From Galbibacter pacificus (GTDB taxonomy: Bacteria > Bacteroidota > Bacteroidia > Flavobacteriales > Flavobacteriaceae), in NCBI RefSeq assembly GCF_029603165.1, contig NZ_JAQSVC010000001.1:806001-870000 (forward strand): a DNA stretch of 64,000 bases. The letters are read 5' to 3'. The translations under genes were made by a program, and so were the position numbers. This document shows, piece by piece, positions 9,601 through 45,332 of this stretch (the first letter of the stretch is position 1; each line of letters begins with the position of its first letter). The notes beneath the pieces are model-generated. The model was given only the letters and a program-made list of their open reading frames with translations. It was not told where the DNA came from and made no database searches.

Positions 9601-10992
9601 GCTAGTGCTGCAGCGTTGGGCTTTCTGCCGATGGCTATTTCAACAGGGGCGGGTGCCGAGGTTCAACGGCCCTTGGCAACCGTTGTGATCGGTGGTTTAA
9701 TTACCTCCACCCTGCTTACCCTGGTTGTATTGCCCGTAATTTATGCCCTGTTCAACAAAGAGAAAAAGGATACGAAAAAAGGGAATGATAATCATCGAAT
9801 CAAGGCTTTGAGCGTAGTGCTTTTGCTGATCGGTTTTTCGGGATATTCTCAAGAGACACAAGTCAAGACCATCGAAAATGTGGAGGAATTGAAGGCGATG
9901 GCATTTGAGAACAACCTGGGACTGAAAGCTTCTTCGCTTCGCGTGGATGAGGCCGATGCGCTTATAGGGAGTGCCTTTGCCTTCGATAAAACAGAGGGTT
10001 ATTTTGGAAAAGACGATAGCAACCGTTCCAACAACAAGGCGCTGAACGTGCTGGGCGTGACCCAAAACTTCAATTTCCCAACGGTTTATTTTGCCCGAAA
10101 AAAGATGAACAAAACCAAATTTCGGCAGGAGCAAAGTACCTACCAACTGCAAAAATTGCGATTGGAACGGGACGTAACCCAAGTGTATTATCAACTTCAA
10201 TATGAAAAGGCGAAAATCGGAGTGTATGAGCAGTTGGACAGTTTGTACCAAAAATTTGCTTATGCAGCAAAAAGAAGGTTTGAACTCGGTGAAAGCAATT
10301 ACCTCGAAAAGATAACCGCCCGGTCCAAACAAAAACAACTGGAAACCCAACTTAAACAGGCCCGGGATGAACTTGATATCTCCCGAGAAAGATTAAAACC
10401 GCTGCTAAATACGGAAGAGGAAATTGTAGTCAAAATACAGCCTTTTCAAAAATTGACCATAAAGAATATGGGGATCGAGGGCAATCCCGGTCTGGATTAT
10501 TATCAGGATCGAAGCGACTACTTTCAGGCCGAAGCCGGGTTGGAGAAACAGCGGCTATTGCCCGATATCAGCTTGACCTATTTTCAATGGAACAATGATG
10601 TGATCAACAGCCCCCTGCAAGGCTATCAAGTAGGTGTTCATATTCCCCTGCTGTTCTTTGGGAATTCTTCAAAAATAAAAGCGGCCAAAATCGCAAAACG
10701 GGCCGCAGCGCAGGAAAGTGCCGATTATAAGGTGCGCTTGAATTCGGAATATAACCAGCTTATTCAGCAAATGAGCAAGCACCAAGAGGCACTTTCGTAT
10801 TACGAAAATGAAGGGAAAGGTCTTTCTGAAGAGATTATTAAGACCGCTACATTAAGTTATAAGAATGGGGAGATCGATTTTTTTGAATACATCCAAAGCC
10901 TTGAAAACTCCTATACGATCATACTTTCTTATTACGAAAACCTTAATGCATATAACCAAATCGTTACCCGCATAAATTACCTAACACTATAA
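6649..10992 (+). CDS. CzcA-type RND heavy-metal efflux pump fused to a TolC-like channel
   Basis: 1,447 residues, about 400 more than a plain CzcA/CusA. Residues 1 to about 1,045 are a full RND permease. In the fourth membrane helix Asp400-Phe-Gly, Asp406-Gly-Ala and Glu413 match the DFG...DGA...E signature of the Zn/Co/Cd (CzcA) class rather than the AIG...DAA motif of Cu/Ag pumps. After a basic linker a hydrophobic stretch (about 1,049-1,063) that resembles a signal peptide leads into an outer-membrane efflux protein domain (about 1,065-1,447) with long coiled coils. Pump and outer-membrane exit duct are therefore one polypeptide, an arrangement known in Bacteroidetes. The adaptor gene follows after 10 nt. 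Confidence 0.92.
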   Translation: MLDKIIKFSITHKLIILLFTAFIIGFGVYSLSQIPIGAVPDVTNNQVQVITTSQNLSTQDMEQYITYPVELEMANLPGVKEIRSVSKFGLSVVTIVFEENLGTYLPRQVIAEKIKSASEKIPDGFGKPQMGPITTGLGEIYQYTLDTRPGFEDRYSAEDLRTIQDWIVKRQLSGIKGVVEINAWGGYVKEYEVAINSKKLNAMNISISDVFTALQNNNSVAGGGYIEKVNQAYFIRGQGRVTSLDDIRNIVVKNDNGTPVYINNIAEVGFGQATRFGAITANGKGETVLGQVMMLKGANSNQVIEAVKARVAKIAESLPEGVVIKPFLDRSELIGRTTFTIAENLIIGCLIVIFVVVLLLGNFRSGLVVASVIPLCLLFALSLMYIFGIDANLMSLGAIDFGIIIDGAVIIVEFTAYQITQKHKEYDNLAKQELRHLKDRVTFNSASRMMNSAIFGQLIILIVFIPILSLSGVEGKMFKPMALTFSFALIGAMILCLTYVPVASAVFLKSEEPSDKNISVRLIKFLNRKYKPVIYWALRRKKFVLGIAVLLLIISGFIFSRMGGEFIPQLDEGDFVIQPVLKTGTSLSKTIETTTRMENILIDSFPEVEQVVSRIGAAEVPTDPMSMEESDVIVSLKPKDEWVTAETKDELADEFKKALSVIPGMEIEFTQPIEMRFNELITGVRADIAVKIFGENLDILNAKAQKIKNLIQDVNGATDITVEKIVGLPQMNVNYKRDKIARYGLNIADLNKIVTMGFSGATMGSVFEGEKRFDMVLRLQKDSRQDISNLKNLYVDTPSGEKVPLSELADITYQKGAAKISRDNTQRRIVVGVNVRGSDLQTVVDKIKKIVDDNISLPPGYTVTYGGQFENLQSATARLKIAVPIALVLIFILLYFAFGTIREALMIFSAIPLAAVGGILFLWIRGMPFSISAGVGFIALFGIAVLNGIVLIEHFKELREEGMKNDDNLIVSGAQDRLRAVLLTASAAALGFLPMAISTGAGAEVQRPLATVVIGGLITSTLLTLVVLPVIYALFNKEKKDTKKGNDNHRIKALSVVLLLIGFSGYSQETQVKTIENVEELKAMAFENNLGLKASSLRVDEADALIGSAFAFDKTEGYFGKDDSNRSNNKALNVLGVTQNFNFPTVYFARKKMNKTKFRQEQSTYQLQKLRLERDVTQVYYQLQYEKAKIGVYEQLDSLYQKFAYAAKRRFELGESNYLEKITARSKQKQLETQLKQARDELDISRERLKPLLNTEEEIVVKIQPFQKLTIKNMGIEGNPGLDYYQDRSDYFQAEAGLEKQRLLPDISLTYFQWNNDVINSPLQGYQVGVHIPLLFFGNSSKIKAAKIAKRAAAQESADYKVRLNSEYNQLIQQMSKHQEALSYYENEGKGLSEEIIKTATLSYKNGEIDFFEYIQSLENSYTIILSYYENLNAYNQIVTRINYLTL

Positions 10993-33586: not shown

Positions 33587-35167
33587 TTATTCAAATATTG
33601 ACCTAGCCTCCTCATAAACCTTTTTAAAATTATCCTCTAAATCCACCTGAGAAAACTGGTTGGCTTCTTCCGGCAGCTCTCTTTGAATATTCTGCAATTT
33701 AAATTGCACCTTTTTGTCTTTCCCATCGGCATAAGTGATAAACTCGCCCTGCTTCAAGCGAAAGAAAACATCTGCCCTAATTTTCGGGATTTCCTTTTCT
33801 CCGGTGGTTATTCGGGTATCAAAATCCAAGTTATGGCCACGACTCACGCTTTTGGTCGGATCCTTAATAATTTCAAAAAAGCGTTCATAATATTTTGCGG
33901 TGTCCGGATCGTTGACCTTACCGAAAAACTGGTAGGAAAGGTTGCTCAATATCGCTTTGCTTGCCTTGTCGCCGTACATCATATCATTCTGTATCTTGTC
34001 CTGCATCACGTAGATGGTGGCAATATCATAACTCCGCAGCGTGGCCGGAATACGGTGCATATTTAGTAAGCGTATAGTCGGCGCTTCTTCCATCAACAGG
34101 AAAGAAGGTTTGGAATTCCGCACACTCATTTGTTTGGTGATCGTATGGATAATGGTTGCAATAACAGGCGAATAAGAAGTTTCAAATTTGGGATTGTTTA
34201 CCACCGAAATCACAGTTGGATTTTCAGAACTATTTATATTGAGTGGCACTTCATCCGCAGATAAGGTCATAAAGATGCGTTGGGTGCTGATTCTTTTTAG
34301 CGCATTGGCCAAGGTGCTTTTTACCCCGGCGGTCTGCCGTTCCGAGTCCTTACCGCTAATAAAGGCATCTGCCATTGCCCGTGATGTCGTATTGGTTTCC
34401 AAAAACTGGATTAGGCTGTTCGTATCCAAATATTGATAAATGGCAATCAGATGGGGAAGGGTACAGAATTTTGGGTACGAGGTTTTAAGTTTCCAAATCA
34501 GACCACCGATCAAGCCTTCGGCAGCATCGTTGAAAAATTTGGTCGTTCCCGAAGTGCCGGATTCCCGTTGCTCCAATAGATTTTCGATCAACACCCTTGA
34601 AACCTCGTTTACGCTTTCCTCGTTCTCTAAATACCGTGGGGCAATAGGATTTACCCTATGGATGATTTTGTCAAAGGAAATGACCTTAAACGGGATATCG
34701 TTATCCTTGAAAAGCGGATACGCCATTTCCGTCAGTTCAAAATCCTTGTAGTCGTGAATAATTCCGCAGAAACCTTCTTTCTGGAAATGTCTTAGAAATC
34801 CATATACCACACTTTCGGTCTTTCCGCTTCCGGCCGAACCTATGATGGAAGCACCTCGCTTTACATTTTCCAATATAAAACTTCCCTTGCTTGTTGGAAA
34901 ACTTACACGATACTTGCTCTCGGCACTTTTTGGCTCGTCCGTTTTATGCAAAAAAACGTACAGTCCGGTATTGATTAGCATCAGCGGGCAAACCAGAACC
35001 AATGATATCGAAATTAAGTCACTAACGCTAGATAGGTAAAACACCAAAACCCCGAGCAAAACCACGTTTAATATAAAAGCAAAACGCGTCAATCTGTACC
35101 CCATATAAAATAGCGTGCTTATTAAGCCAATAATTAACAGTATCGTTGTAAGATTATCCAGTTGCAT
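33587..35167 (-). CDS. mobC: MobC type IV coupling protein (VirD4-like)
   Basis: 526 residues. Membrane helices in the first 75 residues, Walker A GSAGSGKTE (110-118), Walker B SFLLMEEAPTI, and TLRSYDIATIYVMQDKIQ typical of TraG/VirD4 coupling proteins. It delivers the relaxase-DNA complex to the type IV channel. The gene follows mobB by 9 nt. Confidence 0.92.
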   Translation of the reverse strand: MQLDNLTTILLIIGLISTLFYMGYRLTRFAFILNVVLLGVLVFYLSSVSDLISISLVLVCPLMLINTGLYVFLHKTDEPKSAESKYRVSFPTSKGSFILENVKRGASIIGSAGSGKTESVVYGFLRHFQKEGFCGIIHDYKDFELTEMAYPLFKDNDIPFKVISFDKIIHRVNPIAPRYLENEESVNEVSRVLIENLLEQRESGTSGTTKFFNDAAEGLIGGLIWKLKTSYPKFCTLPHLIAIYQYLDTNSLIQFLETNTTSRAMADAFISGKDSERQTAGVKSTLANALKRISTQRIFMTLSADEVPLNINSSENPTVISVVNNPKFETSYSPVIATIIHTITKQMSVRNSKPSFLLMEEAPTIRLLNMHRIPATLRSYDIATIYVMQDKIQNDMMYGDKASKAILSNLSYQFFGKVNDPDTAKYYERFFEIIKDPTKSVSRGHNLDFDTRITTGEKEIPKIRADVFFRLKQGEFITYADGKDKKVQFKLQNIQRELPEEANQFSQVDLEDNFKKVYEEARSIFE

Positions 35168-35176
35168 AACAAAGAT

Positions 35177-36208
35177 TTAGATTCCGATGGAACTTGATTT
35201 GATGGCCACGTCCAAACCTTTGCGCAGCTTGTTGAAAACTTTTAGGGCAAGCTGTGCCTGATTGGTCGGGATGCTGGGCATTATCGGGATGCCCGTTTCC
35301 CGCATCAGTCTAAAAGCGATTGCCTTTTCATTGGTGGGCAATTTCATCAAGGAAGCAAAATAAATTTTCGGGTTCTTGATGAAATTTTTTCGCGCCTTAT
35401 ATGTTTCCGCAAAGTTCCGCTGATAGCCAAAAGTCTTATCAAAGGTATTTTCTGCATTTTCAAAAAATCGATCCCGGTCAAAGCCCCGTTTGACATTCTT
35501 GCCGTTCATCTCAACATCGGAAGCCTTGTATTTGCTCCCGGGCGAAAGGCTGAACGAATTGGATGCATCCTTGCGGCTCACGATAATATGGATATGGCTT
35601 TGGCTTCCGGCCTTTGGCATTCCCTGGACAATCCTTTTCCCATCCTGTTGATGTGGGGCTTGTTTTTCTAATTTTGCGATTTCCCGTTCCCGATTCCCAA
35701 TACTTCCTTCCATCGAGCCGGTTTCAATACTTCGGATCTCATTTCTTAGCTGAAGTATTTTGGTGGCAAAGGGTTGGTTTTCCCTGATCTTTCTGTCCGT
35801 TCCCTTAAAGGTTCGTTGATGTTCGATTTTAGCATAATATTTAATGTCATTGATAGACACAGGTTGCCCATTGATCTCACGGTTGAACGATGCCACATAA
35901 TCCTTCATCAGCTCACGGGTGTACTTTTTCAGATCTTCACTGCTGTTCTGTAACCGGTTCAGTTCGTACTTCGACGGACTGACCGTGATCGAATAAAATT
36001 TCGGTTCGGTCTTTTTCAGTTTGGCACCATTCCCGTCAATATCCTTTACCACTTCTTCCGCTGAAAATTCATCCCCATATTGGTTGAAAAAATGTTCCAT
36101 ATCCTCCTGCTCCAGACCTTGGTTTTCCTTCTCCAGATAGCCCACAAAATCGGCTGAACTTTGGGAATAGTTCCCGCCCAATTTTTGAGGTGTGATCGTG
36201 ATGTACAT
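35177..36208 (-). CDS. mobB: MobB relaxase (DUF5712-type)
   Basis: 343 residues. The metal-binding motif SHIHIIVSRKD (His205, His207) and an upstream YAKIEHQR segment (Glu129-His130) mark a relaxase, although the catalytic Tyr cannot be assigned with confidence. It resembles the DUF5712 relaxases of Bacteroidetes ICEs. It should nick oriT, probably in the non-coding region near 36,601-36,860. Confidence 0.88.
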   Translation of the reverse strand: MYITITPQKLGGNYSQSSADFVGYLEKENQGLEQEDMEHFFNQYGDEFSAEEVVKDIDGNGAKLKKTEPKFYSITVSPSKYELNRLQNSSEDLKKYTRELMKDYVASFNREINGQPVSINDIKYYAKIEHQRTFKGTDRKIRENQPFATKILQLRNEIRSIETGSMEGSIGNREREIAKLEKQAPHQQDGKRIVQGMPKAGSQSHIHIIVSRKDASNSFSLSPGSKYKASDVEMNGKNVKRGFDRDRFFENAENTFDKTFGYQRNFAETYKARKNFIKNPKIYFASLMKLPTNEKAIAFRLMRETGIPIMPSIPTNQAQLALKVFNKLRKGLDVAIKSSSIGI

Positions 36209-36219
36209 AGTTCAAAAAT

Positions 36220-36600
36220 TTATAGTTCGTTGTTGTGGTTTTGCTTTTCCTGAAATCTTACTTTCGGCTTTTCTTCCACAAATTTCTTCTCCAAGATCAA
36301 GGGTTTCTTTTTGGGTTCTTCGGTCTGGAAAAGGGATTCGATCATCGCCACGGTGGGTCTGGTCTGGGTCTTTTCCATATCCCGCATTATGGCGATTACC
36401 GCATTGATACGTTTCTTTAGATTGGCCTCGATCGTCCTTCCGGTCGGGCCCAGTTTTTCCCGTGGGGATATCTCGTTGTAGTGGAAAAAATCGAGCATCG
36501 TGGCCATTGCCTCGGTGTGCGATTTGAAGTGTGTTCTTGAAAATTGCTGGAAACGCTTGGCGGTTTCCTTTTTGAACCTAATGCCGATAAATGAGTCCAT
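36220..36600 (-). CDS. BfmA/BtgA mobilisation accessory protein
   Basis: 126 residues. A ribbon-helix-helix-like start (FIGIRFKKETAKRFQQFSRT, then HTEAMATMLDFF) and a conserved TGRTIEANLKKRINAVIAIM segment identify the BfmA/BtgA family, which binds oriT and assists the relaxase. Two GATTTG-type palindromes directly upstream are candidate binding sites. The gene is first of the mobA-mobB-mobC operon. Confidence 0.88.
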   Translation of the reverse strand: MDSFIGIRFKKETAKRFQQFSRTHFKSHTEAMATMLDFFHYNEISPREKLGPTGRTIEANLKKRINAVIAIMRDMEKTQTRPTVAMIESLFQTEEPKKKPLILEKKFVEEKPKVRFQEKQNHNNEL

Positions 36601-36608
36601 AATTCGCC

Positions 36609-36664
36609 GATTTGTCGCAAATCCTTCCCTAAAAATGGGCGCTCACAGGGCATTTGTCGCAAAT
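36609..36664. repeat. Pair of ATTTGTCGCAAAT palindromes upstream of bfmA
   Basis: ATTTGTCGCAAAT occurs at 36,610-36,622 (flanked by G and C to give GATTTG-TCG-CAAATC) and at 36,652-36,664, 42 bp apart. The first lies within 10 bp of the bfmA start. Likely an autoregulatory operator and/or part of oriT. Confidence 0.6.
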
Positions 36665-36719
36665 TGTAGAAATCTAAATAATCGGCTAATTTTTAAGTAT
36701 TTAAAAATCAGTTGATTAC

Positions 36720-36830
36720 CAAGGAATAGGAGTGCTTAACATCGCATCGCGTGTTACCCTCTTGCTACTCCTTTTCGTTCGCCACAGGCGAACAAAAATT
36801 TCGTACAATTTGGCTAAAAGCCAATTGCCA
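36720..36830. other. Candidate origin of transfer (oriT)
   Basis: Non-coding DNA beside the relaxase operon with a cluster of inverted repeats: AGGAGT...ACTCCT enclosing TAACA...TGTTA (36,728-36,771), GTTCGCC-ACA-GGCGAAC (36,777-36,793) and TTGGCT-AAA-AGCCAA (36,810-36,824). Such clusters next to mob genes commonly mark oriT. The nick site cannot be assigned by eye. The rest of 36,831-37,030 shows no gene. Confidence 0.5.
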
Positions 36831-37050
36831 ATTTCAGGGAAAAGATTTCCCGTTATGTAATTTTTCGATGGGCAGGGTTATCGGCGAAAGTCAAAAAATG
36901 GATACCCCTGCGTAAAGTTAAATGCTGAATTTCAGCGGAATAAAGATAGGTATTTTTCAACTTATGGGATATAATTTTCTTAAAAAAATAGCTTCTGTTT
37001 TTAGAAAAAGTATTAAATTTAAACAGTAGACCTTTCAAGGTCTAAAGGAC

Positions 37051-37086
37051 AAAGGGAAAATTCAGGTAACAGCGAATTTTCCCTTT
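37051..37086 (-). terminator. Strong hairpin, probable terminator
   Basis: A perfect 13-bp stem (37,051-37,063 with 37,074-37,086) and a 10-nt loop, AT-rich toward the ends with a short T/A run on both sides. It lies downstream of the minus-strand genes ending at 37,146 and could also stop transcription from the oriT side. A short AGACC...GGTCT hairpin (about 37,028-37,042) precedes it. Confidence 0.65.
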
Positions 37087-37145
37087 TTAGTTATTATATG
37101 TACCCCTGAAACTTCAAAGGTATTTCCATTCCTATTTAGACAATT

Positions 37146-37343
37146 TCAAATATTAAATACATAGGTATAACTGTATAAATTCCTTAGTGCTTCTTCCTCG
37201 ATCATCACATCAAAATTGGTGCAATGTTCTTTGGCAAACTTCCGGATATCATCGCCAAATTTTTGTTCAACGTCTTTTTTGGAACTTTCCAAAAGGCGTG
37301 CTTGGGTTTCCCCGTTCAGGTCTGAAAAATTTAGATAGATCAT
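37146..37343 (-). CDS. Small conserved-type ICE protein, unknown function
   Basis: 65 residues, acidic and helical (TQARLLESSKKDVEQKFGDD), ending LYSYTYVFNI. It lies 23 nt downstream of the DUF6876-type gene on the same strand, before a strong hairpin. No domain is recognised. The reading frame, composition and operon position support a real gene. Confidence 0.55.
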   Translation of the reverse strand: MIYLNFSDLNGETQARLLESSKKDVEQKFGDDIRKFAKEHCTNFDVMIEEEALRNLYSYTYVFNI

Positions 37344-37366
37344 AATTTTTTAGGTTTATGAATGGG

Positions 37367-37792
37367 TCAATATTCGCTTGGCAACATCAGCGTATTATCC
37401 ACAAAAAACAACCGCAGTTCATCCAATGGAAAATCGGTAACTCGATAGCCGTGTTTTCCAAAAATGTTCCCGTTTCCATCGCTGTACGTTATCTCGGCTT
37501 CGTACCCAGAATGATCCTGTTTCTCCTTAGGCAACCGTTTGAAGTCTATGGTTATAAAATAGCTTTTGTCCATTAAGGTTTTGGCAAATGCGGAAGTGTC
37601 CGTAATGAGCCAAAAACATTCAGCAGCTTCCGCCAAATATTTCAGTCCGTTGGTGTAACGGGTTCTTAACAATGGGATTTGAAACACGGTTTCCGAACCG
37701 TGAAAATATTGCAATCCCGCTTTGATTTCGTTAACTTGTGCTTTACTCATCGGTAAATATTTGTTTTGGTATTCGTGAATCTTCGATTTCAT
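37367..37792 (-). CDS. DUF6876-like protein
   Basis: 141 residues with the pattern AGLQYFHGSETVFQIPLL, then TNGLKYLAEAAECFWLITD and YSDGNGNIF, matching my memory of DUF6876, a family common in Bacteroidetes mobile elements. Function unknown. It lies downstream of ssb but is separated from it by a terminator. Confidence 0.65.
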   Translation of the reverse strand: MKSKIHEYQNKYLPMSKAQVNEIKAGLQYFHGSETVFQIPLLRTRYTNGLKYLAEAAECFWLITDTSAFAKTLMDKSYFITIDFKRLPKEKQDHSGYEAEITYSDGNGNIFGKHGYRVTDFPLDELRLFFVDNTLMLPSEY

Positions 37793-37823
37793 TTTGATTT
37801 CTATTTATGGAGTTAATAATGAA

Positions 37824-37859
37824 AAAGAGGGCGTGACTTTCGACCGTAACGCCCTCTTT
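37824..37859 (-). terminator. Terminator after ssb
   Basis: Stem AAAGAGGGCGT (37,824-37,834) with ACGCCCTCTTT (37,849-37,859), 14-nt loop. On the minus strand it ends in a T run, just after the ssb stop at 37,869. Confidence 0.85.
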
Positions 37860-37868
37860 AATTTTAAA

Positions 37869-38225
37869 TTAATCGGCTGAATTATTGCCGTTCTTAGTTC
37901 CCAACAAAAGGATTTCGTTGGCTTCTACTTCGGTAACGTACCTTTTGATACCGTCCTTGTCCTCGTAGCTTCGGGATTTCAATTTTCCGGTTACCCCGAT
38001 TTCCTTGCCCTTTCCGGCATATTTCTCGATGATTTCGGCAGTTTTGCCCCAAGCTACTACGGTATGCCATTCGGTATTTTGTGTTTTCTCGCCATTGGTG
38101 TTTTTATAAAACTCGTTTGTGGCAAGTGAAAAACGGGCTACCTTTTTACCGCTTTCAAGGTTCGTAATGGTTGGCTCCTGTCCAACGTTTCCGATTAACT
38201 GTACGTGATTTTTTAAAGTACTCAT
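37869..38225 (-). CDS. ssb: Single-stranded DNA-binding protein
   Basis: 118 residues with the OB-fold pattern of bacterial SSB: NHVQLIGNVGQEP, ARFSLATNEFY, TEWHTVVAWGKTAEIIEKY and KGKEIGVTGKLKSRSYED. The acidic C-terminal tip (DIPF-type) of housekeeping SSB is absent; it ends in GTKNGNNSAD, as usual for mobile-element SSBs. It probably protects the transferred or replicating ICE strand. Confidence 0.92.
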   Translation of the reverse strand: MSTLKNHVQLIGNVGQEPTITNLESGKKVARFSLATNEFYKNTNGEKTQNTEWHTVVAWGKTAEIIEKYAGKGKEIGVTGKLKSRSYEDKDGIKRYVTEVEANEILLLGTKNGNNSAD

Positions 38226-38235
38226 AATAAAAGAT

Positions 38236-38409
38236 TTAAAGATTAATTAAAATGCTACCCGAACCATTCAGATAGTTTACGTTTATATTTTTTTGAAGTG
38301 ATTTACTTATTATATCCAGAGCGTTTTCCTTTTTTGTTTTTTTTAGTCCCGCTTCCTTTTTGATGTTTTTGTAAGATTTCATACTATTCAGTTTAGATTT
38401 ACTTCCCAT
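38236..38409 (-). CDS. Small Lys-rich protein upstream of ssb
   Basis: A 57-residue frame from ATG at 38,409, ending 10 nt before the ssb start. The N-terminal half is basic (SKSKLNSMKSYKNIKKEAG), and the C-terminal half reads NVNYLNGSGSILINL. No family is recognised. The tight spacing to ssb and lack of competing frames suggest a genuine small gene, but codon evidence is thin. Confidence 0.45.
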   Translation of the reverse strand: MGSKSKLNSMKSYKNIKKEAGLKKTKKENALDIISKSLQKNINVNYLNGSGSILINL

Positions 38410-38455
38410 AGAGCCGTCCGCTGTTACCTTTTTTTTGTTGCTGATACATTTTCAA

Positions 38456-38524
38456 TAGTTGGAATTAATAAGGAGTTATAAAAGGGAGGCACGACCGGTT
38501 ATGCACTCCGTTTAACTTCCAACT
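38456..38524 (+). ncRNA. Possible small structured element before repeat copy A
   Basis: AGTTGGAA (38,457-38,464) pairs with TTCCAACT (38,517-38,524), and inside it GGAGT with ACTCC, giving a long imperfect stem with internal loop. Another stem, ATAGGAA...TTCCTAT, lies just before copy A (about 38,610-38,645). Transcription is not shown. Confidence 0.35.
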
Positions 38525-38647
38525 GTTGGTATTTTGCTTACAAAAAAAGGGTAGGGACAGCGGCGGTGCGGGAGTAGGTCTAAATGCCTTTTGTGAAGTA
38601 CGAAACCATAGGAAGCGGGACTAAATGATAAATGGAATTCCTATCAG

Positions 38648-38856
38648 GCGGACTTAACTTTAAAGATGTAGATTGGGAATGAAGTGTTCCTGCCGTTTTT
38701 CAGGCAGGGTTTAACGTAATGGAAATCGGAATCTTTAAAGTTGTGTTCAAGACCTTTGCAGGGAAGCTCTTTGCCCGGAATGTAGCCCTTCGGCTAAGTT
38801 CAGGACAGGCTTTTTCGCGCGATGGAGCGGCAATGTGCTGACCGGGTTATGAAAAC
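38648..38856 (+). ncRNA. Structured repeat RNA, copy A
   Basis: Stem P1: 38,650-38,667 with 38,731-38,748 (17 of 18 positions pair, including G-U, with a conserved U-U mismatch). Stem P2: CCTGCC (38,689-38,694) with GGCAGG (38,703-38,708). The second half holds the conserved boxes CAAGACCTTTG, AAGCTCTTTGCCCGGAATG and TGCTGACCGGG...ATGAAAA, in which CCCGG can pair with CCGGG. Copies B, C and D share these boxes. No frame is conserved between copies. Confidence 0.7.
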
Positions 38857-38885
38857 GTATTATCCTCTTTAAGTAGGATTTAAGA

Positions 38886-39084
38886 CGGACTTGACTTCAA
38901 AGCTGTAGATGGGAATGGAGTGTTCCTGCGTATTTCAGCAGGAATAGTGCAATGGGAATCGAAAGCTTTGGAGTTGTGTCCAAGACGTATGTAGTGAAGC
39001 TCTTTGCCCGAAATGAAGTGGTTGCCTGCTTTTTCAGCAGGCGAGCGTGGAATGTAGGGGAATGTGCTGAGCGGGTCATGAAAA
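38886..39084 (+). ncRNA. Structured repeat RNA, copy B
   Basis: P1: 38,887-38,904 with 38,964-38,981 (17 of 18 pairs). P2: TTCCTGC (38,923-38,929) with GCAGGAA (38,938-38,944). An inner hairpin GCCTGC...GCAGGC near 39,023-39,042 is stronger than in the other copies. Separated from copy A by a linker with an ATCCT...AGGAT hairpin that recurs between copies C and D. Confidence 0.7.
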
Positions 39085-39133
39085 TTTAATTCCGGACGTA
39101 TTTCCTATATACAGCTTGTGCGCAGTTTTTATA

Positions 39134-39688
39134 TTATTTTCCTATATAATTAAGATAATCTGATTTATAAAACTGTTCTTTTTCACCAAGAAACTTATTT
39201 TTGGTAAGTACATATTTACCTTCATTTAAATGGACATATCCTATTGGATAAGGATTGAAATTTTTTAAAAATAATTCTGAAATATATTCCGAACTGTTTT
39301 CATCATCAATGAAGATAATTCTATCAATAACATAGCTTTCAAATATTGATTTAATATTTTCTCTTAAAATGGAAAACAGTTCTATTTCTGAGATTGAATT
39401 TTCTTTAAAACGCCTGAAGTTAATTATTGTTTTTTTGGTTTTGATATGGTGAGTTACTTGACAGAAACCTAAAATGGTCTGGTTTGACTCCCAATAGAAA
39501 TATTTATTTTCAAATTTAGATTTATCTTGATTGGTTCTTTTCAAAATATTGAACATTAAACAACTTACCCCCATATCTTTAATTCTATCATCTTTTAAGA
39601 AGCTATTTATTAATGTTATGGAGTCTAGTATTCGGATTTTTCGATTTTGATTTATCTCTCCTAAATTATTCATTGTTATATTTGTCAT
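39134..39688 (-). CDS. Unknown cargo protein (possibly GNAT-like)
   Basis: 184 residues. The middle (YFYWESNQTILGFCQVTHH, then IINFRRFKEN) and the end (NFNPYPIGYVHLNEGKYVL) have the strand-helix rhythm of an acyltransferase-like fold, but no acetyl-CoA loop is evident. It is AT-rich, and stands between repeat copy B and the dapB-like gene on the same strand. No confident family. Confidence 0.5.
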   Translation of the reverse strand: MTNITMNNLGEINQNRKIRILDSITLINSFLKDDRIKDMGVSCLMFNILKRTNQDKSKFENKYFYWESNQTILGFCQVTHHIKTKKTIINFRRFKENSISEIELFSILRENIKSIFESYVIDRIIFIDDENSSEYISELFLKNFNPYPIGYVHLNEGKYVLTKNKFLGEKEQFYKSDYLNYIGK

Positions 39689-39766
39689 TTTACTCGTTTT
39701 TTAAGTTAATTATTAAGTAATTGGACATTTATTTCTTCAAAGAACTTTTTTATGCAATTCTGTTTT

Positions 39767-40567
39767 TTAAAAGTCCATTATACTATCCAATCCTCTTCGC
39801 AAGCCCTTAAATGTTCCAATTTTTTCGATTGCCAAAAGTCCGCCTTTTACGTACGGAACTGCACTTGCTCCCGAATCGTGTCTTATCGATAGTTTTTCGT
39901 CTTTAAGACCGAATATTGTTTCTATGGAAATAACGTGTCCTGGAAGCCTGACCGAATGGATTTGAACGTCATTTAAATTTGCCCCGCGACTTGATTTATC
40001 GCCAATCAATTCATCTTCTGTCACAAATTTGTTGGGTTTTTGAACTTTTGAAAGTCGATGAGCCAATTCTCTTGCTGTTCCACTTGGTGCATCAATTTTA
40101 TCCTCGTGAGTGTAATCAATAATCTCAAAATTGGGAATATATTTTGCCGCCATTTCCGAAAATTTTTGAAGTAGTACAACCGTAATTGCAAAATTACCAA
40201 CCGCTAAAACAGAAGTTTTGTTTTCATTGGCGACCTTCTCAATTTCCGAATAATCTTTTTCGGTCAATCCCGAAGTTCCAACAACAACTTTTTTCCCTTT
40301 TTTTAGAGAAGTAAGAATATTTTTCTTGGCAACGTCTGGTTTCGTGTAATCCACTAGAACATCAAAATCAGTTTCATCTAATGCAGTTTCAATGTTTTCA
40401 TAAATTGGAATATTTGTTGAACCTAAATCGAGAATTTCAGCTAAGTTTTCTCCTTTATGACTTCTAGAAAGTGCTCCAACAAGCTCCATCTTTTCGTGGT
40501 TAAAAACCCCTTTGCTCAATGCAGAACCTGCCCAACCTGTTCCGCCTGCTATAAATACTTTTATCAT
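39767..40567 (-). CDS. DapB-like dihydrodipicolinate reductase paralogue
   Basis: 266 residues resembling DapB (NAD(P)H-dependent 4-hydroxy-tetrahydrodipicolinate reductase of lysine/DAP synthesis): nucleotide loop AGGTGWAGSAL, VVGTSGLTEKD, and KIDAPSGTARELAH. In the active-site stretch the usual EAHHxxK is DYTHEDK: Thr153 replaces the catalytic His, His154 and Lys157 remain. The start overlaps the preceding gene by 4 nt. As ICE cargo with MarR and a small membrane protein it may act on another substrate. A housekeeping dapB is expected elsewhere. Confidence 0.8.
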   Translation of the reverse strand: MIKVFIAGGTGWAGSALSKGVFNHEKMELVGALSRSHKGENLAEILDLGSTNIPIYENIETALDETDFDVLVDYTKPDVAKKNILTSLKKGKKVVVGTSGLTEKDYSEIEKVANENKTSVLAVGNFAITVVLLQKFSEMAAKYIPNFEIIDYTHEDKIDAPSGTARELAHRLSKVQKPNKFVTEDELIGDKSSRGANLNDVQIHSVRLPGHVISIETIFGLKDEKLSIRHDSGASAVPYVKGGLLAIEKIGTFKGLRRGLDSIMDF

Positions 40568-40806
40568 AATGTTTGTGTTTTATTATTACTGTTATTTTTG
40601 AATTTTTTTAAATGGTAAATGTGTATGATGCAGAAAATAATACCTGCAATGATTAACGGACTTGATTTTAGAAACAGGCCGTAGATAATGTAGAAAAAAC
40701 TTGAAATGAGATGCCATAAACGAAATTGCCCCATTTCTTTCTTGGTAATTACGAAAAACCCTGTCCTAATTGCCAAATACCCTAAAATTTCAGTTATCCA
40801 AATCAT
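40564..40806 (-). CDS. Small membrane protein (CBU_0592-like)
   Basis: 80 residues with three hydrophobic segments (about 3-20, 31-45, 48-66) and a basic tail, similar in shape to the CBU_0592-type small membrane proteins. It overlaps marR upstream and the dapB-like gene downstream by 4 nt each, so the three form one translationally coupled unit. Role unknown; a partner for small-molecule transport is possible. Confidence 0.6.
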   Translation of the reverse strand: MIWITEILGYLAIRTGFFVITKKEMGQFRLWHLISSFFYIIYGLFLKSSPLIIAGIIFCIIHIYHLKKFKNNSNNKTQTL

Positions 40807-41282
40807 AGTTCTTTTACATTTTCTATTGTTCTTTCGTTATAATTTTTGTCAGCTACTAATTTTTCAAATTCAGTAAGTTCTTGCATAAAGTTAGGACTGT
40901 TTTCAATCAGTTCTTTTGTTGTTTCGATGCAAGCATCCCAATGTTTATGTAAATTTGGAAGTTTGTTTTTCGATTTTTCGGATAATTCTAAAAGCTGCTT
41001 TCGTGAATCGTTTTTATCCGTTTTGGTCTCGATGTAATTCTTTTTCTTCATTTTGTTGATGATTTTCACGCAAGCAGGATGCGACATTCTTAATTCTTGT
41101 GAGATTTCCGTAATTGTCAAGGAATTATGTTTTTCCAAAAGAAGGAAAATTAAATGCCAATTAGGTTCAATATTAAGTCCTGCGTTTTTGTAGTAGTCTC
41201 TTGTGCTGTATAATAGTTCATCACTTAAACGCTTTATTCTACTGTTCAATCCTGCATACCCGATTTGTTGTAAAAAGTCCAT
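40803..41282 (-). CDS. MarR-family transcriptional regulator
   Basis: 159 residues with the MarR winged helix (about 55-120): LTITEISQELRMSHPACVKIINKMKKK then the wing TDKNDSRKQLLELS, flanked by dimerisation helices. It is the first gene of the marR-membrane protein-dapB-like unit and probably controls it in response to a small ligand. Confidence 0.88.
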   Translation of the reverse strand: MDFLQQIGYAGLNSRIKRLSDELLYSTRDYYKNAGLNIEPNWHLIFLLLEKHNSLTITEISQELRMSHPACVKIINKMKKKNYIETKTDKNDSRKQLLELSEKSKNKLPNLHKHWDACIETTKELIENSPNFMQELTEFEKLVADKNYNERTIENVKEL

Positions 41283-41427
41283 ATCTTAATTATTTGTAAC
41301 TGGTTACGTAAATATTTGATTTTATGAAAATTTTAATAGGAAGTAGTTCGGTCAAATTGCATTACAACTTGTTATATATTGTTATTATGCTGTTTCTTAG
41401 TTAAATCCACTTCTACAAATTAGTAAA

Positions 41428-41610
41428 GCGGACTTGATTCACGATTTTGGCTCTGGAATGAAGTGTTCCTTCCCAGCGCAGCGGGAAGGGTTAGCGGAAT
41501 GGAAAGCTGAAATTGGGGATTGTGTCCAAGACCTTTGTAGGAAAGCTCTTTGCCCGGAATGCAGCTTTTCGCGGAATGGAGCGGCAATGTGCTGACCGGC
41601 TTATGAAAAC
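41428..41610 (+). ncRNA. Structured repeat RNA, copy C
   Basis: P1: 41,430-41,452 with 41,505-41,527, where 21 of 23 positions pair although much of the stem sequence differs from copies A, B and D. P2: CCTTCCC (41,468-41,474) with GGGAAGG (41,483-41,489). The second half is nearly identical to copy A (CAAGACCTTTGTAGG, GCTCTTTGCCCGGAATG, TGCTGACCGGC). This copy gives the best covariation evidence. Confidence 0.72.
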
Positions 41611-41637
41611 GGATTATCCTTTGAAGTAGGATTAAAA

Positions 41638-41860
41638 GCGGACTTGACTTCAAAGATGTAGGTGGGAATGTCTGTACTGAGTTTAATCGAAGTAGAGTTT
41701 GGCTGCTTCCCGATTTTTCCTGGGAACAAGCGGGCAAGTGAAATGGAAATCGGAAGCTTTGGGGTCGTGTCCAAGACCTTTGTAATGAAGCGCTTTTCCC
41801 GGAATGCAGCTTTTTCTGCGGAAGGTAGGGGAATGGGCTGAGTGGGATTGCAAAGCTAAC
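41638..41860 (+). ncRNA. Structured repeat RNA, copy D
   Basis: P1: 41,640-41,655 with 41,757-41,772 (15 of 16 positions pair). The P2 region is enlarged by an insertion of about 30 nt (41,671-41,703) and ends in TTCCC...GGGAA. The closing part is more diverged (TTTTCCCGGAATG, GGCTGAGTGGG). It follows copy C after a linker with an ATCCT...AGGAT hairpin, the same arrangement as A and B. Confidence 0.65.
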
Positions 41861-41895
41861 TTTCCAAATAAATTCTTTTGCTCAGAATAAAAAAA

Positions 41896-41916
41896 ATCCA
41901 GTTTAAGGTACTGGAT
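41896..41916 (-). terminator. Terminator after the DUF932 gene
   Basis: ATCCAGT (41,896-41,902) pairs with ACTGGAT (41,910-41,916); on the minus strand a run of eight T follows. It lies 16 nt past the DUF932 stop codon. Confidence 0.85.
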
Positions 41917-41931
41917 AAACCTATTATGACA

Positions 41932-42768
41932 TTAAGCCATTTCATAAACGGCATCGAACAGTTTTTTGTCCAAGCGTTCCTGTTGTGAAAAGCTTTTTTT
42001 CAATGTATTGTGAAGCATTTGATTGAAAGCATTATAGCCTATCCACAAATTAGGTTTTTCATCAAGTAACAACGCTTCGTTATCCAGAATTTCAAGTACT
42101 TCCCGGGATTTCTTTGAAGGATCATTGTTCTTATCGCTACATTCGTACCGGAACAATTTCGTGCTTTCCAGAATTTCTTTTACAAATTCCTTGGTGTTGA
42201 TGATTTCAAATTCCCTCATTCTGTCGAACTTCTTGGTAATGGTGTAAAATTCATTATCCAAGAACTTATCGAACAGATTGTTCAACCTTGGCATTATCAG
42301 GTCGGTATTGTTCTTACTATGCTTGATGGAAAACTCAATTTCCGCTTGTGAAACGTGTAGGCCATTGGAGCATACTTCCCTATAAAAGCCAAAATGTCCA
42401 GAAGTTTTCTCGCTACCATCATAGGAATTCTTAAACCGCAGCATCGGCAGTATCAGGTCTTTTTCATTCTTTACCGAAAATTGGCTGTTATCATCAATGA
42501 TAAAGTCGGTAATGAAAGACCTATCATTCCTGTTGATTGTCCGCTTCTGATAATTCAGTCTGGCATCGGTCAACATTTCTTCGGCCTTTTTGAAGAAAAG
42601 TTCGTTCGGTACGTGGCCGTAGCTGTTCGATACCACGTTGACAATTTTGCCATTCGAAATTATGGCATTTTCAAGTCCCCTTCGGGATTCCATCTGGGTC
42701 AGGATTTTCAAGGATTTCATTTCTGATGGAACGAAGATTTCATCCTGCTGTAAATTTGATAAATACAT
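41932..42768 (-). CDS. DUF932 protein
   Basis: 278 residues with the DUF932 pattern (phage/plasmid-like TIGR03299-related): VPNELFFKKAEEML, LRFKNSYDGSEKTSGHFGFYREVCSNGL, and NLWIGYNAFNQMLHN near the end. The family is common on plasmids and ICEs, with unknown function; members sit near recombination or anti-restriction genes. Flanked by its own terminator and by the structured region 42,830-42,960. Confidence 0.82.
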   Translation of the reverse strand: MYLSNLQQDEIFVPSEMKSLKILTQMESRRGLENAIISNGKIVNVVSNSYGHVPNELFFKKAEEMLTDARLNYQKRTINRNDRSFITDFIIDDNSQFSVKNEKDLILPMLRFKNSYDGSEKTSGHFGFYREVCSNGLHVSQAEIEFSIKHSKNNTDLIMPRLNNLFDKFLDNEFYTITKKFDRMREFEIINTKEFVKEILESTKLFRYECSDKNNDPSKKSREVLEILDNEALLLDEKPNLWIGYNAFNQMLHNTLKKSFSQQERLDKKLFDAVYEMA

Positions 42769-42969
42769 AACATTTGATTTTAGTTAAACAATTAATATTT
42801 AAGCTAGAACCAAACGGAAGATAAAATCTCAGCTCAAAAGGAAACGGAATAAATAGCGAGTGCGGGAGCGGCTTTATGCCGTAAGCTTTTGATGGGAGTA
42901 TTTTACGAGTTTACCTTTGCGCATATATTGATTGAATATTATAACTCCCTTTTTAAGGAAAAAAGAAAA

Positions 42970-42988
42970 CCTACTCTTGGGGAGTAGG
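42970..42988 (-). terminator. Terminator after the coiled-coil ICE protein
   Basis: CCTACTC (42,970-42,976) pairs with GAGTAGG (42,982-42,988), loop of 5; the minus strand continues into a T-rich stretch. The stretch 42,769-42,969 upstream of the DUF932 gene contains no frame I would call, only a GC-rich GTGCGGGAG segment also found near 38,566. Confidence 0.75.
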
Positions 42989-43016
42989 CTTCCTGTTTTA
43001 AGGATTTGAAGTTACC

Positions 43017-43424
43017 TTAGAGTTCAAATTTTACAATCTGTTCCTCAATTTCGGATTTTCGTTCCTCCAAAGTGGACTGTAAGTGAGTTGTAACCAATTT
43101 GATAAGGTTCGTATTGGTCGTTTTAAATTCCAAATTGTGGGAATCCCGGATGTAAAATGAAGCTGAATCCCCTTGGTTATAGTTGAACTTTGTCAACTCG
43201 CTCAAGGTCTGGTTCAACCGTTCCCGTTGGGTGGCCAATCCTCTCAGTTTCTCGAAATTTTGGATCCGGTCATCCAAACTGATGGTAGCTTTTTTCGATG
43301 CTACCGCTTTTTCTGTTGAAGCAGCTTTTCCAATGGCTTCATCGGTCAGCTTTTTCTGTACTTCCTTTTTAACGGATGCATTTTCCTTTTTTGCAGTTCC
43401 GTTTTGTTTTACTGTTGTTGCCAT
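43017..43424 (-). CDS. Lys-rich helical ICE protein, unknown function
   Basis: About 135 residues from the ATG at 43,424; a longer frame from 43,514 would run through a structured non-coding region and is rejected. The N-terminal 50 residues are Lys/Ala/Glu-rich and low complexity, followed by a coiled-coil-like helix (RIQNFEKLRGLATQRERLNQ) and DSASFYIRDSHNLEFKTTN. Proteins of this form occur in Bacteroidetes ICEs beside the integrase; no function is known. Confidence 0.65.
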   Translation of the reverse strand: MATTVKQNGTAKKENASVKKEVQKKLTDEAIGKAASTEKAVASKKATISLDDRIQNFEKLRGLATQRERLNQTLSELTKFNYNQGDSASFYIRDSHNLEFKTTNTNLIKLVTTHLQSTLEERKSEIEEQIVKFEL

Positions 43425-43490
43425 AATTAAAATTTTTAAGTTAAACATTATTTTAAATCGTTTTGGCAGCTTGTAAGGCAACGAGCAATA

Positions 43491-43628
43491 CCAAAACAGG
43501 GCATTAACAGCCACAGGGAGGAAGGGGCAAGGTATGAGCGGTTATTTTTCGCAGAAAAATGTTCGGCATCCCGAAGGGCTTGACCTTGACCAAGCGATGG
43601 GATGTGGCTACATTTGCCCACTGTTTGG
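43491..43628 (+). ncRNA. Candidate structured RNA or DNA element
   Basis: CCAAAACAGGGC (43,491-43,502) pairs with GCCC-A-CTGTTTGG (43,616-43,628) with two single-base bulges, and AGCCACA (43,509-43,515) with TGTGGCT (43,603-43,609). Inside are ATTTTT-CGCAG-AAAAAT and CCC-GAA-GGG hairpins, with CATCCC/GGGATG as an alternative pairing. It fills most of the gap 43,425-43,776. The transcribed strand cannot be told. Confidence 0.5.
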
Positions 43629-43776
43629 TTTTGGTTGCCTCAGCTGACCGAAAAATAAAATAACTTAGTGTTAAAATTTATGGCTCAATACAAAACCCAA
43701 ATCTGCAAGGGATTATTAGACGAAAAAAAAAGAGTGCCGACTGGATTAGAACCTAAAAGGTGTTTTCCAAATCAAA

Positions 43777-45030
43777 TTATTGATAGTGCACCCTTGTTTC
43801 GGCCTTGTCCGTGGTGTTTAATTTACTACGCAACGAACGCATATCAGATGACACTTTTTGTTCGATGACCCTGGCGTAGATTTGCGTTGTGGAAAGCTTT
43901 GTATGACCGAGTAATTTTGAAACGGTCTCAATGGGCACGCCATTGGAAAGCGTAACCGTAGTAGCAAACGTGTGCCTTGCCGCGTGGAACGTAAGCTTCT
44001 TATTGATTTTTAGGATAGCAACTACTTCCTTCAAATATTTATTGATTTTTTGATTAGAAAATACCGGCAGCAATTTTTCGCTTTTGTTTTCAGTTCCCTG
44101 GTCATACTTTTTCAGGATGTCAAGGGCTTTATCCAAAAGCGGTATTTTTACCGCTTCATCGTTCTTTTCCCTTTTTGTGAATATCCAGTAATCCCCATCG
44201 ATGCCGCGTACAATATGGTCGTCGCAAAGCAACTTCACGTCGATATAGGACAGACCCGTATAACAGGCAAAAACAAAAACGTCCCTTGTTTTTTGGTGCA
44301 TCCCTTTTGAAAGCTGACTGGATTCCAGAACTTCAAGTTCCGATTGGGACAGAAATGCTCGCTGGTGTTTTGTGAACTTTAGCGAGAACCTCACAAAGGG
44401 GTCTTTTTCGATCCACTCCAACCGAAGGGCAAGGTTCATCATCTTTTTCAAGCGTTCCAAATGTTTCATAACCCCATTGTTCTTTAGGGGCTGGGAGCGG
44501 TTTATGGATTTTCCGTTACGTAGGAACTGTTCAAAGTCAATGATGAATTTATAGGATAATTGTTTAAGGAAAACATCGTTGGTCTTTAGTTTGTGCTTCA
44601 AATACCGTTTGATATAGCGTTCCGTAGTGAAGTAATTTTTCAAGGTGCCGGGCTTGAGTACCGAAACCATATTCTTATTATGGTAGGAAACCAGTTCAAG
44701 CAGCGTTTTGTGCTGTTCATCTTCTCCGAGATACCGGGCCTTGATGGCCTGGGCGGTAACATATTTGGATTCGCCCAAAAGCTGTTTGTGGCAATCCAAC
44801 AAATCGGAATACACTTGGTCAAGGTAAACATTTAGTGCCTTGCCGTCGGAAGTCCTTAGTGTTGACCTTTTGGAACGGGTATCCCAATAGGTAACCGATG
44901 TGGATCGTTTTAAACTGATCTCGGCACGTTTTCCATCGACCGTGATACGGGCATAAATAGGTGCAAAATCATCTTTTGCTTTGGCCATACTCAGCCAAAA
45001 ATGAATGGTAAAAGTCTTTGAAGTCTGCAT
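43777..45030 (-). CDS. int: Tyrosine integrase of the ICE
   Basis: About 417 residues from the ATG at 45,030; a frame from 45,075 adds 15 unlikely residues. The N-terminal arm-binding and core-binding SAM-like domain (to about 200) is followed by the catalytic domain: TGLSYIDVKLL, HAARHTFATT (His-x-x-Arg), LLGHTKLSTTQIYARV (His and nucleophile Tyr). The first catalytic Arg position is Ser (TGLS), as in IntDOT of Bacteroides elements. It catalyses integration at and excision from the neighbouring tRNA-Pro. Confidence 0.93.
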   Translation of the reverse strand: MQTSKTFTIHFWLSMAKAKDDFAPIYARITVDGKRAEISLKRSTSVTYWDTRSKRSTLRTSDGKALNVYLDQVYSDLLDCHKQLLGESKYVTAQAIKARYLGEDEQHKTLLELVSYHNKNMVSVLKPGTLKNYFTTERYIKRYLKHKLKTNDVFLKQLSYKFIIDFEQFLRNGKSINRSQPLKNNGVMKHLERLKKMMNLALRLEWIEKDPFVRFSLKFTKHQRAFLSQSELEVLESSQLSKGMHQKTRDVFVFACYTGLSYIDVKLLCDDHIVRGIDGDYWIFTKREKNDEAVKIPLLDKALDILKKYDQGTENKSEKLLPVFSNQKINKYLKEVVAILKINKKLTFHAARHTFATTVTLSNGVPIETVSKLLGHTKLSTTQIYARVIEQKVSSDMRSLRSKLNTTDKAETRVHYQ

Positions 45031-45124
45031 AAACTCTCGCTTTAAGTGAATAATCGATTTGTTTACGAAAGTCAAATCGCTGCGAAAGTCAAGTCTATTG
45101 AATTACCAATGTAGTGAAAATTCT

Positions 45125-45175: not shown

Positions 45176-45258
45176 AATCTTATGATTTCAAGAAAAATAA
45201 AAACCCTTGATTTTCATAAGATTAGCTATATTTTGGTGTCTGTTGACACCGTAATTGT
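45176..45258. other. Candidate ICE right end region (attR side)
   Basis: It holds an imperfect inverted repeat AATCTTATGA...TCATAAGATT (about 45,176-45,230) and a perfect GGTGTC-TGTT-GACACC hairpin (about 45,236-45,251) just outside the tRNA 3' end. The element/chromosome border should be within or next to the tRNA 3' end. The hairpin could also end the tRNA transcript. Confidence 0.5.
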
Positions 45259-45332
45259 CGGGGTGGCAGGATTCGAACCTGCGACCTCCGCGTCCCAAAC
45301 GCGGCGCGATAACCGGGCTACGCTACACCCCG
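45259..45332 (-). tRNA. tRNA-Pro (anticodon TGG)
   Basis: 74 nt. Acceptor stem CGGGGTG/CACCCCG, D arm, anticodon stem CCGCG-TTTGGGA-CGCGG with anticodon TGG, and T arm GCAGG-TTCGAAT-CCTGC are all present. No CCA is encoded. It is intact next to the ICE and is the likely integration target. Confidence 0.97.

Follow-up and report, generated by a model that had tools for sequence, protein, structure and literature searches.

Folded repeats beside ssb and a putative transfer origin in mobile elements of marine-type Bacteroidota: a possible start site on entering single-stranded DNA

What are the four repeats found upstream of a single-stranded DNA-binding protein gene (ssb) in Galbibacter pacificus, and what could they do for the mobile element that carries them? 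They lie in a stretch of 64,000 nucleotides (nt) that was analysed as a whole (NCBI RefSeq assembly GCF_029603165.1, contig NZ_JAQSVC010000001.1, positions 806,001 to 870,000; hereafter the window) and are called copies A to D. A first-pass annotation of the window had described them as a structured RNA transcribed from the + strand. The repeats represent a folded element of mobile DNA that is both widespread and strongly conserved among marine-type Bacteroidota. Together with a second structured domain (D1), they have, in our judgement, about an even chance of being a cis-acting element of the transferred strand (T-strand), comparable to Frpo, ssi or sso, which would start primer or RNA synthesis on the entering single-stranded DNA (ssDNA).

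The four copies are on the + strand (38648-41845), and the pair counts of their main stem, P1, came out unchanged on recount (Table 1). They fit a two-hairpin model, in which P1 (about 18 to 23 pairs, with GGAC/GTCC at its base) encloses P2 and is followed by a conserved linker (GTCCAAGA...TTTGTA) and then by P3. GGAATG-type boxes are opposed across an internal loop in both hairpins, and 100 of 124 distinct copies of the family hold at least four boxes of the looser pattern RNAATG (N not C). As originally reported, a T-T mismatch occupies P1 position 5 in every copy of the window, and position 7 reads A-T, G-T, G-T and G-C in copies A to D. Some repeats carry an insert, CCCTTCG...CTCAGGACAGG (38786-38809 in copy A; also in copies of loci L043, L048 and L034), which has the look of an independent small mobile palindrome.

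The main alignment of the repeat holds 135 copies (the 124 distinct ones among them) from 78 loci and was fitted to a covariance model, R1, built from 20 seed copies with 37 pairs. These loci were selected for carrying the repeat and some of the elements are near-identical (e.g., L104, L106 and L107), so that locus counts overstate independence. Among the distinct copies, 92.0% of the cells are paired, against 82.7% when the 3' letters are shuffled, and pairing falls to 30.5-54.7% when the partners are slid by one to three columns. Changes on both sides occur in 30 of the 37 pairs (shuffled mean 17.8). A MAFFT alignment of the seed (20 rows), which was not fitted to the structure, gives 93.4% paired cells and 15 pairs changing on both sides (86.0% and 9.0 after shuffling); 41 later copies give 89.2% and 26 (77.8% and 17.5). 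Chance or misaligned repeats are ruled out by the slid and shuffled controls. The repeat structure is under selection, on the + strand: wobble cells are G-T in 543 cases and A-C in 49, out of 4404, so that the + strand of the window is the folding strand, as had been argued from the four copies. Coding sequence is ruled out, since the copy lengths spread over the three classes modulo 3 (45/44/35) and at most 29 of the 124 copies are open in any one frame; the absence of a conserved frame, first remarked in the window, extends to the family.

The wobble count also bears on the idea that the repeats are bound by a protein in double-stranded form (as a partition site, a replication terminator or a regulator site), with inverted repeats that would only mimic a fold. 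Although inverted repeats can bind dimeric proteins and an intergenic place before operons suits a regulator, neither such a strand-biased wobble nor compensatory change with a free stem sequence would be expected of a duplex site, and we consider this explanation very improbable.

The repeats are not confined to one place. The kind of covariance-model search suggested in the first-pass annotation reveals a family, with R1 matches in 115 of 397 Flavobacteriaceae genomes. In a sample of the phylum, 10 of 395 genomes gave matches; eight of these are Flavobacteriaceae, including that of G. pacificus, which has six copies in total, two of them beyond the window on another contig (locus L032). An exact-pattern scan of named genomes found 29 stretches, in genera that include Maribacter, Winogradskyella, Leeuwenhoekiella, Aequorivita, Gillisia, Arenibacter and one Membranihabitans. 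The earlier statement that no described family of this form is known held as well for Rfam: Rfam 15 finds the tRNA alone in the window, with no weak match over the repeats at E up to 5, and no match in eight related loci at E up to 0.5, by which a known Rfam RNA is ruled out. Nor did copies turn up on plasmids or phages: a distant blastn search with copy C has no match in 72,556 plasmids and 50,697 phages, and an exact-pattern scan has none in viral contigs.

In the window, the repeats belong to an integrative and conjugative element (ICE) with a relaxase, a BfmA/BtgA mobilization protein, a coupling protein, SSB, DUF6876 and DUF932 proteins, and an integrase gene next to a tRNA. The conjugative genes and the cargo, from 33587 to 45075, are all on the minus strand, in line with the initial observation that the neighbouring genes run opposite to the repeats. 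This arrangement with respect to ssb recurs in other loci. Among the 69 loci that bear ssb, all 122 copies are on the strand opposite to ssb and 120 are upstream of it, the two others being weak copies in L109; 68 of the 69 have a copy that starts this side of the gene at a distance of 391-542 nt upstream, the exception being L118, where the nearest copy is 2302 nt upstream. In a second locus set, 36/36 copies are opposite to ssb. Across the 397 genomes, the repeat and the MobB relaxase occur together in 92, the repeat without the relaxase in 23, the relaxase without the repeat in 18 and neither in 264 (odds ratio 59).

The repeats are also linked to a putative origin of transfer (oriT). Between the DUF6876 and BfmA genes, 68/68 loci examined (those with one BfmA match of more than 80 residues and enough flank) have a conserved block in which a short hairpin with covarying arms precedes CCTCTTGC; this sequence stands about 157-199 nt before MobA in all of them. 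In the MOBP oriTs described in PMC3772185, the nick motif ATCCTG is immediately preceded, on its 5' side, by an inverted repeat, and after cleavage the relaxase remains on the 5' end of the strand. Because of this hairpin and nick geometry, the + strand of the window is predicted to be the T-strand, with the leading side rightward; this would place ssb and the repeats in the leading region, while the relaxase would be lagging, which PMC11541004 presents as its usual place. A single oriT motif is present in 64 of the 78 loci (the 14 others, with none or two, are left out of the count); in these 64, 105/105 copies are on the oriT strand, and 103 of these 105 are on the inferred leading (3') side of the predicted nick. 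A second oriT motif in L034 (3196-3505, minus strand), with a partial repeat on its 5' side, may be left over from a different mobilizable element.

The gap between ssb and the nearest repeat, folded on the strand of the repeat, gives the domain D1, which was absent from the first-pass annotation and exists in two types (the copy of L035 is at 9727-10228, minus strand). An alifold consensus of type 1 (31 rows, including the window) has 119 pairs, 31 of them with changes on both sides, and that of type 2 (25 rows) has 142 and 28. The + strand, i.e., the predicted T-strand, is more stable than its complement in 31/31 rows of type 1 and 25/25 of type 2, with RNA and DNA parameters alike. A related short open frame in the direction of ssb is found in 31/31 type 1 rows; in the window, it has 57 codons (38236-38409, minus strand; MGSKSK..MKSYKNIKKEA..KKENALDIISKS) and is upstream of ssb. 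By eye, this frame is diverged in L169, a locus without ssb.

Table 1. Features of the ICE region in the window (positions are those of the window)
Feature	Coordinates	Strand	Evidence or remarks
Type IV coupling protein	33587..35167	-	Pfam TrwB_AAD_bind 1.1e-15
MobB family relaxase	35177..36208	-	NCBIfam NF041495 1.8e-122
BfmA/BtgA family mobilization protein (here also MobA)	36220..36600	-	NCBIfam NF041200 6.7e-26
Putative oriT	36738..36767	+	hairpin AACATCGC-ATC-GCG-TGTT then ACCCTCTTGCTA; predicted nick after CTCTTG (~36764/36765)
DUF6876 gene between ssb and oriT	37367..37792	-	Pfam PF21781 2.7e-31
ssb of conjugative element	37869..38225	-	Pfam SSB 3.6e-34
D1 (type 1), between ssb and copy A	38226..38647	+	alifold, 31 rows; 16-nt perfect inverted repeat 38342-38357 / 38610-38625
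Repeat copy A	38648..38845	+	cmsearch R1 151.9 bits; P1 arms 38650-38667 / 38731-38748; P1 17/18; R1 seed row
Repeat copy B	38885..39074	+	cmsearch R1 137.3 bits; P1 arms 38887-38904 / 38964-38981; P1 17/18; R1 seed row
Variable cargo between copies B and C	39134..41282	-	184-aa unknown, DapB-like, 80-aa unknown (outside profile scan), MarR-type regulator
Repeat copy C	41428..41599	+	cmsearch R1 194.6 bits; P1 arms 41430-41452 / 41505-41527; P1 21/23; R1 seed row
Repeat copy D	41638..41845	+	cmsearch R1 112.8 bits; P1 arms 41640-41655 / 41757-41772; P1 15/16; non-seed
DUF932 gene beyond copy D	41932..42768	-	Pfam PF06067 1.4e-14
Tyrosine integrase	43777..45075	-	Pfam Phage_integrase 4.4e-17
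tRNA adjoining integrase	45258-45332	-	Rfam scan

The module formed by D1 and the repeats follows oriT, not only ssb. For example, L047, L169 (which begins at a contig end) and L201 have oriT, BfmA, D1 and a repeat, with no match for ssb or the MobB relaxase, and L044 has the relaxase with no match for ssb. A query with the oriT region found matches in 67 of 299 genomes, from which 20 loci were picked by hand (the repeat of L254 was already known from the genome search). The motif is found in 19 of the 20, and eight of these 19 carry D1 and/or the repeat (L250, L251, L252, L254, L255, L256, L259 and L265). In 8/8, D1 or the repeat shares the strand of oriT and lies 3' of it; six of the eight have no match for ssb or the relaxase.

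If the module acts in cis on the T-strand, the ICE or mobilizable element would be nicked at oriT and its + strand would enter the recipient with the 5' end in front. Being early to enter, D1 and the repeats would fold, and the folded strand would be recognised by the host RNA polymerase, a primase or a protein of the element. RNA synthesis would then start leftwards, back toward oriT. This RNA would prime the complementary strand and, in ICEs, could also be an early mRNA for ssb and some of the cargo. Additional copies, in tandem and around cargo, may provide redundancy as well as homologous stretches for cargo exchange. Priming would be the common denominator, since it alone would make sense in mobilizable elements without ssb. 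Of this picture, the data show the structure, its strand, its position and its linkage to ssb and oriT, whereas the polarity of the T-strand, the activity of the ssDNA form and a function in initiation are inferred. Expression of first genes or the start of the second strand while the DNA is still single-stranded is described for enterobacterial plasmids (PMC9849209, PMC11541004) and for a Bacillus ICE (PMC4595007), and the title of the Frpo paper cited in PMC11541004 names both transcription and primer RNA. No such element in Bacteroidota was found in the open-licence literature, as judged by titles and abstract openings.

The F plasmid (NC_002483, 50000-68000; L270) can serve as a yardstick. 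It carries a pair of direct repeats of about 540 nt, 90% identical, one of which ends 21 nt before ssb. The other ends 20 nt before a hypothetical gene, with a DUF932 gene next in line. PMC9849209 describes Frpo2 and Frpo1 at these positions and reports that, once they are deleted, the genes behind them show no significant early expression. Both repeats fold better on the ssb template strand than on the complement, with RNA parameters (-270 vs -250 and -288 vs -249 kcal/mol) as with DNA parameters (-140 vs -129 and -147 vs -132 kcal/mol). Genes for SSB, a ParB-like protein and DUF932 lie in the leading region of F, and those for SSB and DUF932 recur in the ICE region. The Bacteroidota element thus resembles Frpo/ssi of F and ColIb-P9 in being non-coding, directly repeated in the (predicted) leading region with one copy upstream of ssb, better folded on the template strand than on the complement, and next to genes for SSB and DUF932. 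However, it has no similarity to them beyond chance (blastn of the F blocks against the 78 loci, best E 0.48), its length and architecture (two-hairpin repeat plus D1) and its phylum are different, and it is also found in mobilizable elements without ssb. As for sso1 of ICEBs1, described as orientation-specific, downstream of oriT and forming stem-loops on the single strand (PMC4595007), the likeness lies in the fixed orientation to the predicted nick (105/105 copies and 8/8 loci picked by oriT) and the difference in the presence of several copies.

Various results weigh against an initiation site on ssDNA. Eleven of the 19 oriT sites have no detectable D1/repeat module (a weak match in L268, with E 0.04 and 5.6 kb off, was scored as none). 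Nine orphan loci with 13 copies (L041, L122, L148, L152, L157, L158, L159, L200 and L215) have no ssb, oriT or MobA in their stretch, and the neighbouring stretches of six orphans (L160-L164, L167) have none either; L157 is on the same contig as the ssb locus L156, and pieces of D1 are retained in L122, L159 and L215. The oriT hairpin itself shows Watson-Crick pairs throughout (476/476 in 68 loci, fitted for the best Watson-Crick register), and no clear general excess of T-strand folding was seen on the leading side of 18 oriTs. In 40 repeats and 56 D1 rows, a scan for the -35/-10 boxes of a folded promoter, which misses those of Frpo itself, found no excess. Of the genes next to a repeat, that on the ssb side runs antisense to it in 96/105 cases and that on the other side in 72/105; 67 of these 96 are at ssb distance, and the other 38 ssb-side cases comprise 29 antisense and 9 sense genes. 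The repeat is therefore not simply a promoter for every cargo gene, a role that the 9/38 sense cases away from ssb weaken.

To the same side of the balance belong the folding energies. P1, with 17.4% wobble, has a median helix energy of -14.5 kcal/mol with RNA parameters and of -2.5 with DNA parameters, and P3 has -4.5 and +1.2 (119 copies). In 40 of these 119 copies, the repeat strand is more stable than its complement in 40/40 with RNA parameters and in 36/40 with DNA parameters, but in DNA the advantage is small (median -22.4 vs -19.6) and the z-score is no better (-2.16 vs -2.60 for the complement). In the F repeats, the G-T pairs are fewer in the DNA-parameter folds (6/185 and 11/193, 3-6%) than in the RNA-parameter folds (18/194 and 20/196, 9-10%), all of these being single-sequence folds that are not like-for-like with the consensus P1. 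Non-standard pairs in the GGAATG loops, which the energy models leave out of account, may stabilise the DNA form, by analogy to (GGAAT)n duplexes.

These energies would suit a structured non-coding RNA with the + sequence of D1 and the repeats, made from the non-transferred strand and acting in transfer or establishment, e.g., as a relaxosome part or a regulator. G-U pairs kept in at least 90% of the rows of D1 (six in type 2, four in type 1) and highly conserved unpaired boxes point in this direction too, and there is a precedent, as PMC9299015 reports that SGI1 requires a small RNA encoded beside its oriT. This sgm-sRNA is likewise a structured element beside the oriT of an integrated mobile element, but it differs in being transcribed from mapped promoters (PMC9299015). 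Few promoter matches are seen on the + strand. The full Bacteroidota promoter consensus TTG-N17-23-TAnnTTTG occurs on the repeat strand within 200 nt upstream in 6/124 copies. This says little, because control genes show no enrichment of it either (4 of 222 gene upstreams in the gene direction, shuffled 5, and 38 in the reverse direction). TAnnTTTG, present in 70 of the 222 control upstreams (shuffled 52), is found in 4/66 ssb-repeat gaps on the + strand (shuffled about 26) and in 0/66 in the direction of ssb (shuffled about 15), the gaps being of only two types. Furthermore, the 35 copies compared cease to be similar near the point where the repeat begins on its 5' side, so that no shared promoter is visible.

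Wobble was not accepted as proof of RNA, since the Frpo repeats of F also carry G-T pairs, though fewer than P1. The cis-acting ssDNA reading is favoured because these F repeats share both G-T pairs and an excess of stability on the template strand, and because the module is kept with oriT in helper-dependent elements: a helper could supply an RNA in trans but not a start site on the entering strand. We regard an RNA acting in this way as a serious but less likely alternative, and it seems somewhat less likely again that D1 and the repeats (about 600 nt and more) are a large structured RNA of a new class, with the T-strand sequence, in the transfer or establishment machinery of Bacteroidota conjugative and mobilizable elements. 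From the initial description of a structured RNA read from the + strand, the covarying structure and the folding of that strand stand, while transcription from it is no more than possible, the + strand being also the predicted T-strand.

Cargo exchange offers another way of looking at the repeats. In the window, a DapB-like gene (39767-40567, minus strand; NCBIfam dapB over cut-off) lies in the ICE cargo, near the MarR-type regulator. The cargo of other loci includes AbiEi/AbiEii, a type IIG restriction enzyme and PDC-S28 and PDC-S49 candidates, and PADLOC has a match for five of ten cargo proteins scanned and none for the five others. Defence cargo is found beside or between repeats in L042, L035, L036 and L038. 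A Wadjet assignment made by eye for cargo in L037 was dropped, as three of its proteins have no PADLOC match and the two that were scanned in Pfam have none there. The repeat-flanked cargo site is a possible exchange hotspot.

The repeats could thus be recombination borders for cargo, used by a site-specific recombinase on folded strands, as in integrons, or by homologous recombination. The attC sites of integrons are folded single-strand sites in one orientation with cargo between them, and the repeats are likewise folded, in one orientation and with cargo between copies. Such a role would explain why one place in the ICE holds variable cargo, with defence genes among it, flanked by direct copies, and why similarity stops near the ends of the repeat. 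In contrast to attC, however, the Bacteroidota repeats also stand in cargo-free tandem arrays (L033, L126 and L145) and beside oriT in mobilizable elements. Their stems swap sequence yet keep their pairs, which suggests a role for the fold. As PMC9849209 discusses for Frpo1/Frpo2, exchange may be only a side effect, and recombination borders appear to us improbable as the main function.

If initiation on the T-strand is the right reading, 115 of the 397 sampled genomes of the family would carry such an element, defined by sequence and often, at the level of loci, adjacent to a predicted oriT. The mechanism known from enterobacterial plasmids and from a Bacillus ICE could then be tested in a further phylum, and the leading regions of Bacteroidota mobile elements, together with their cargo, would become findable by a model search.

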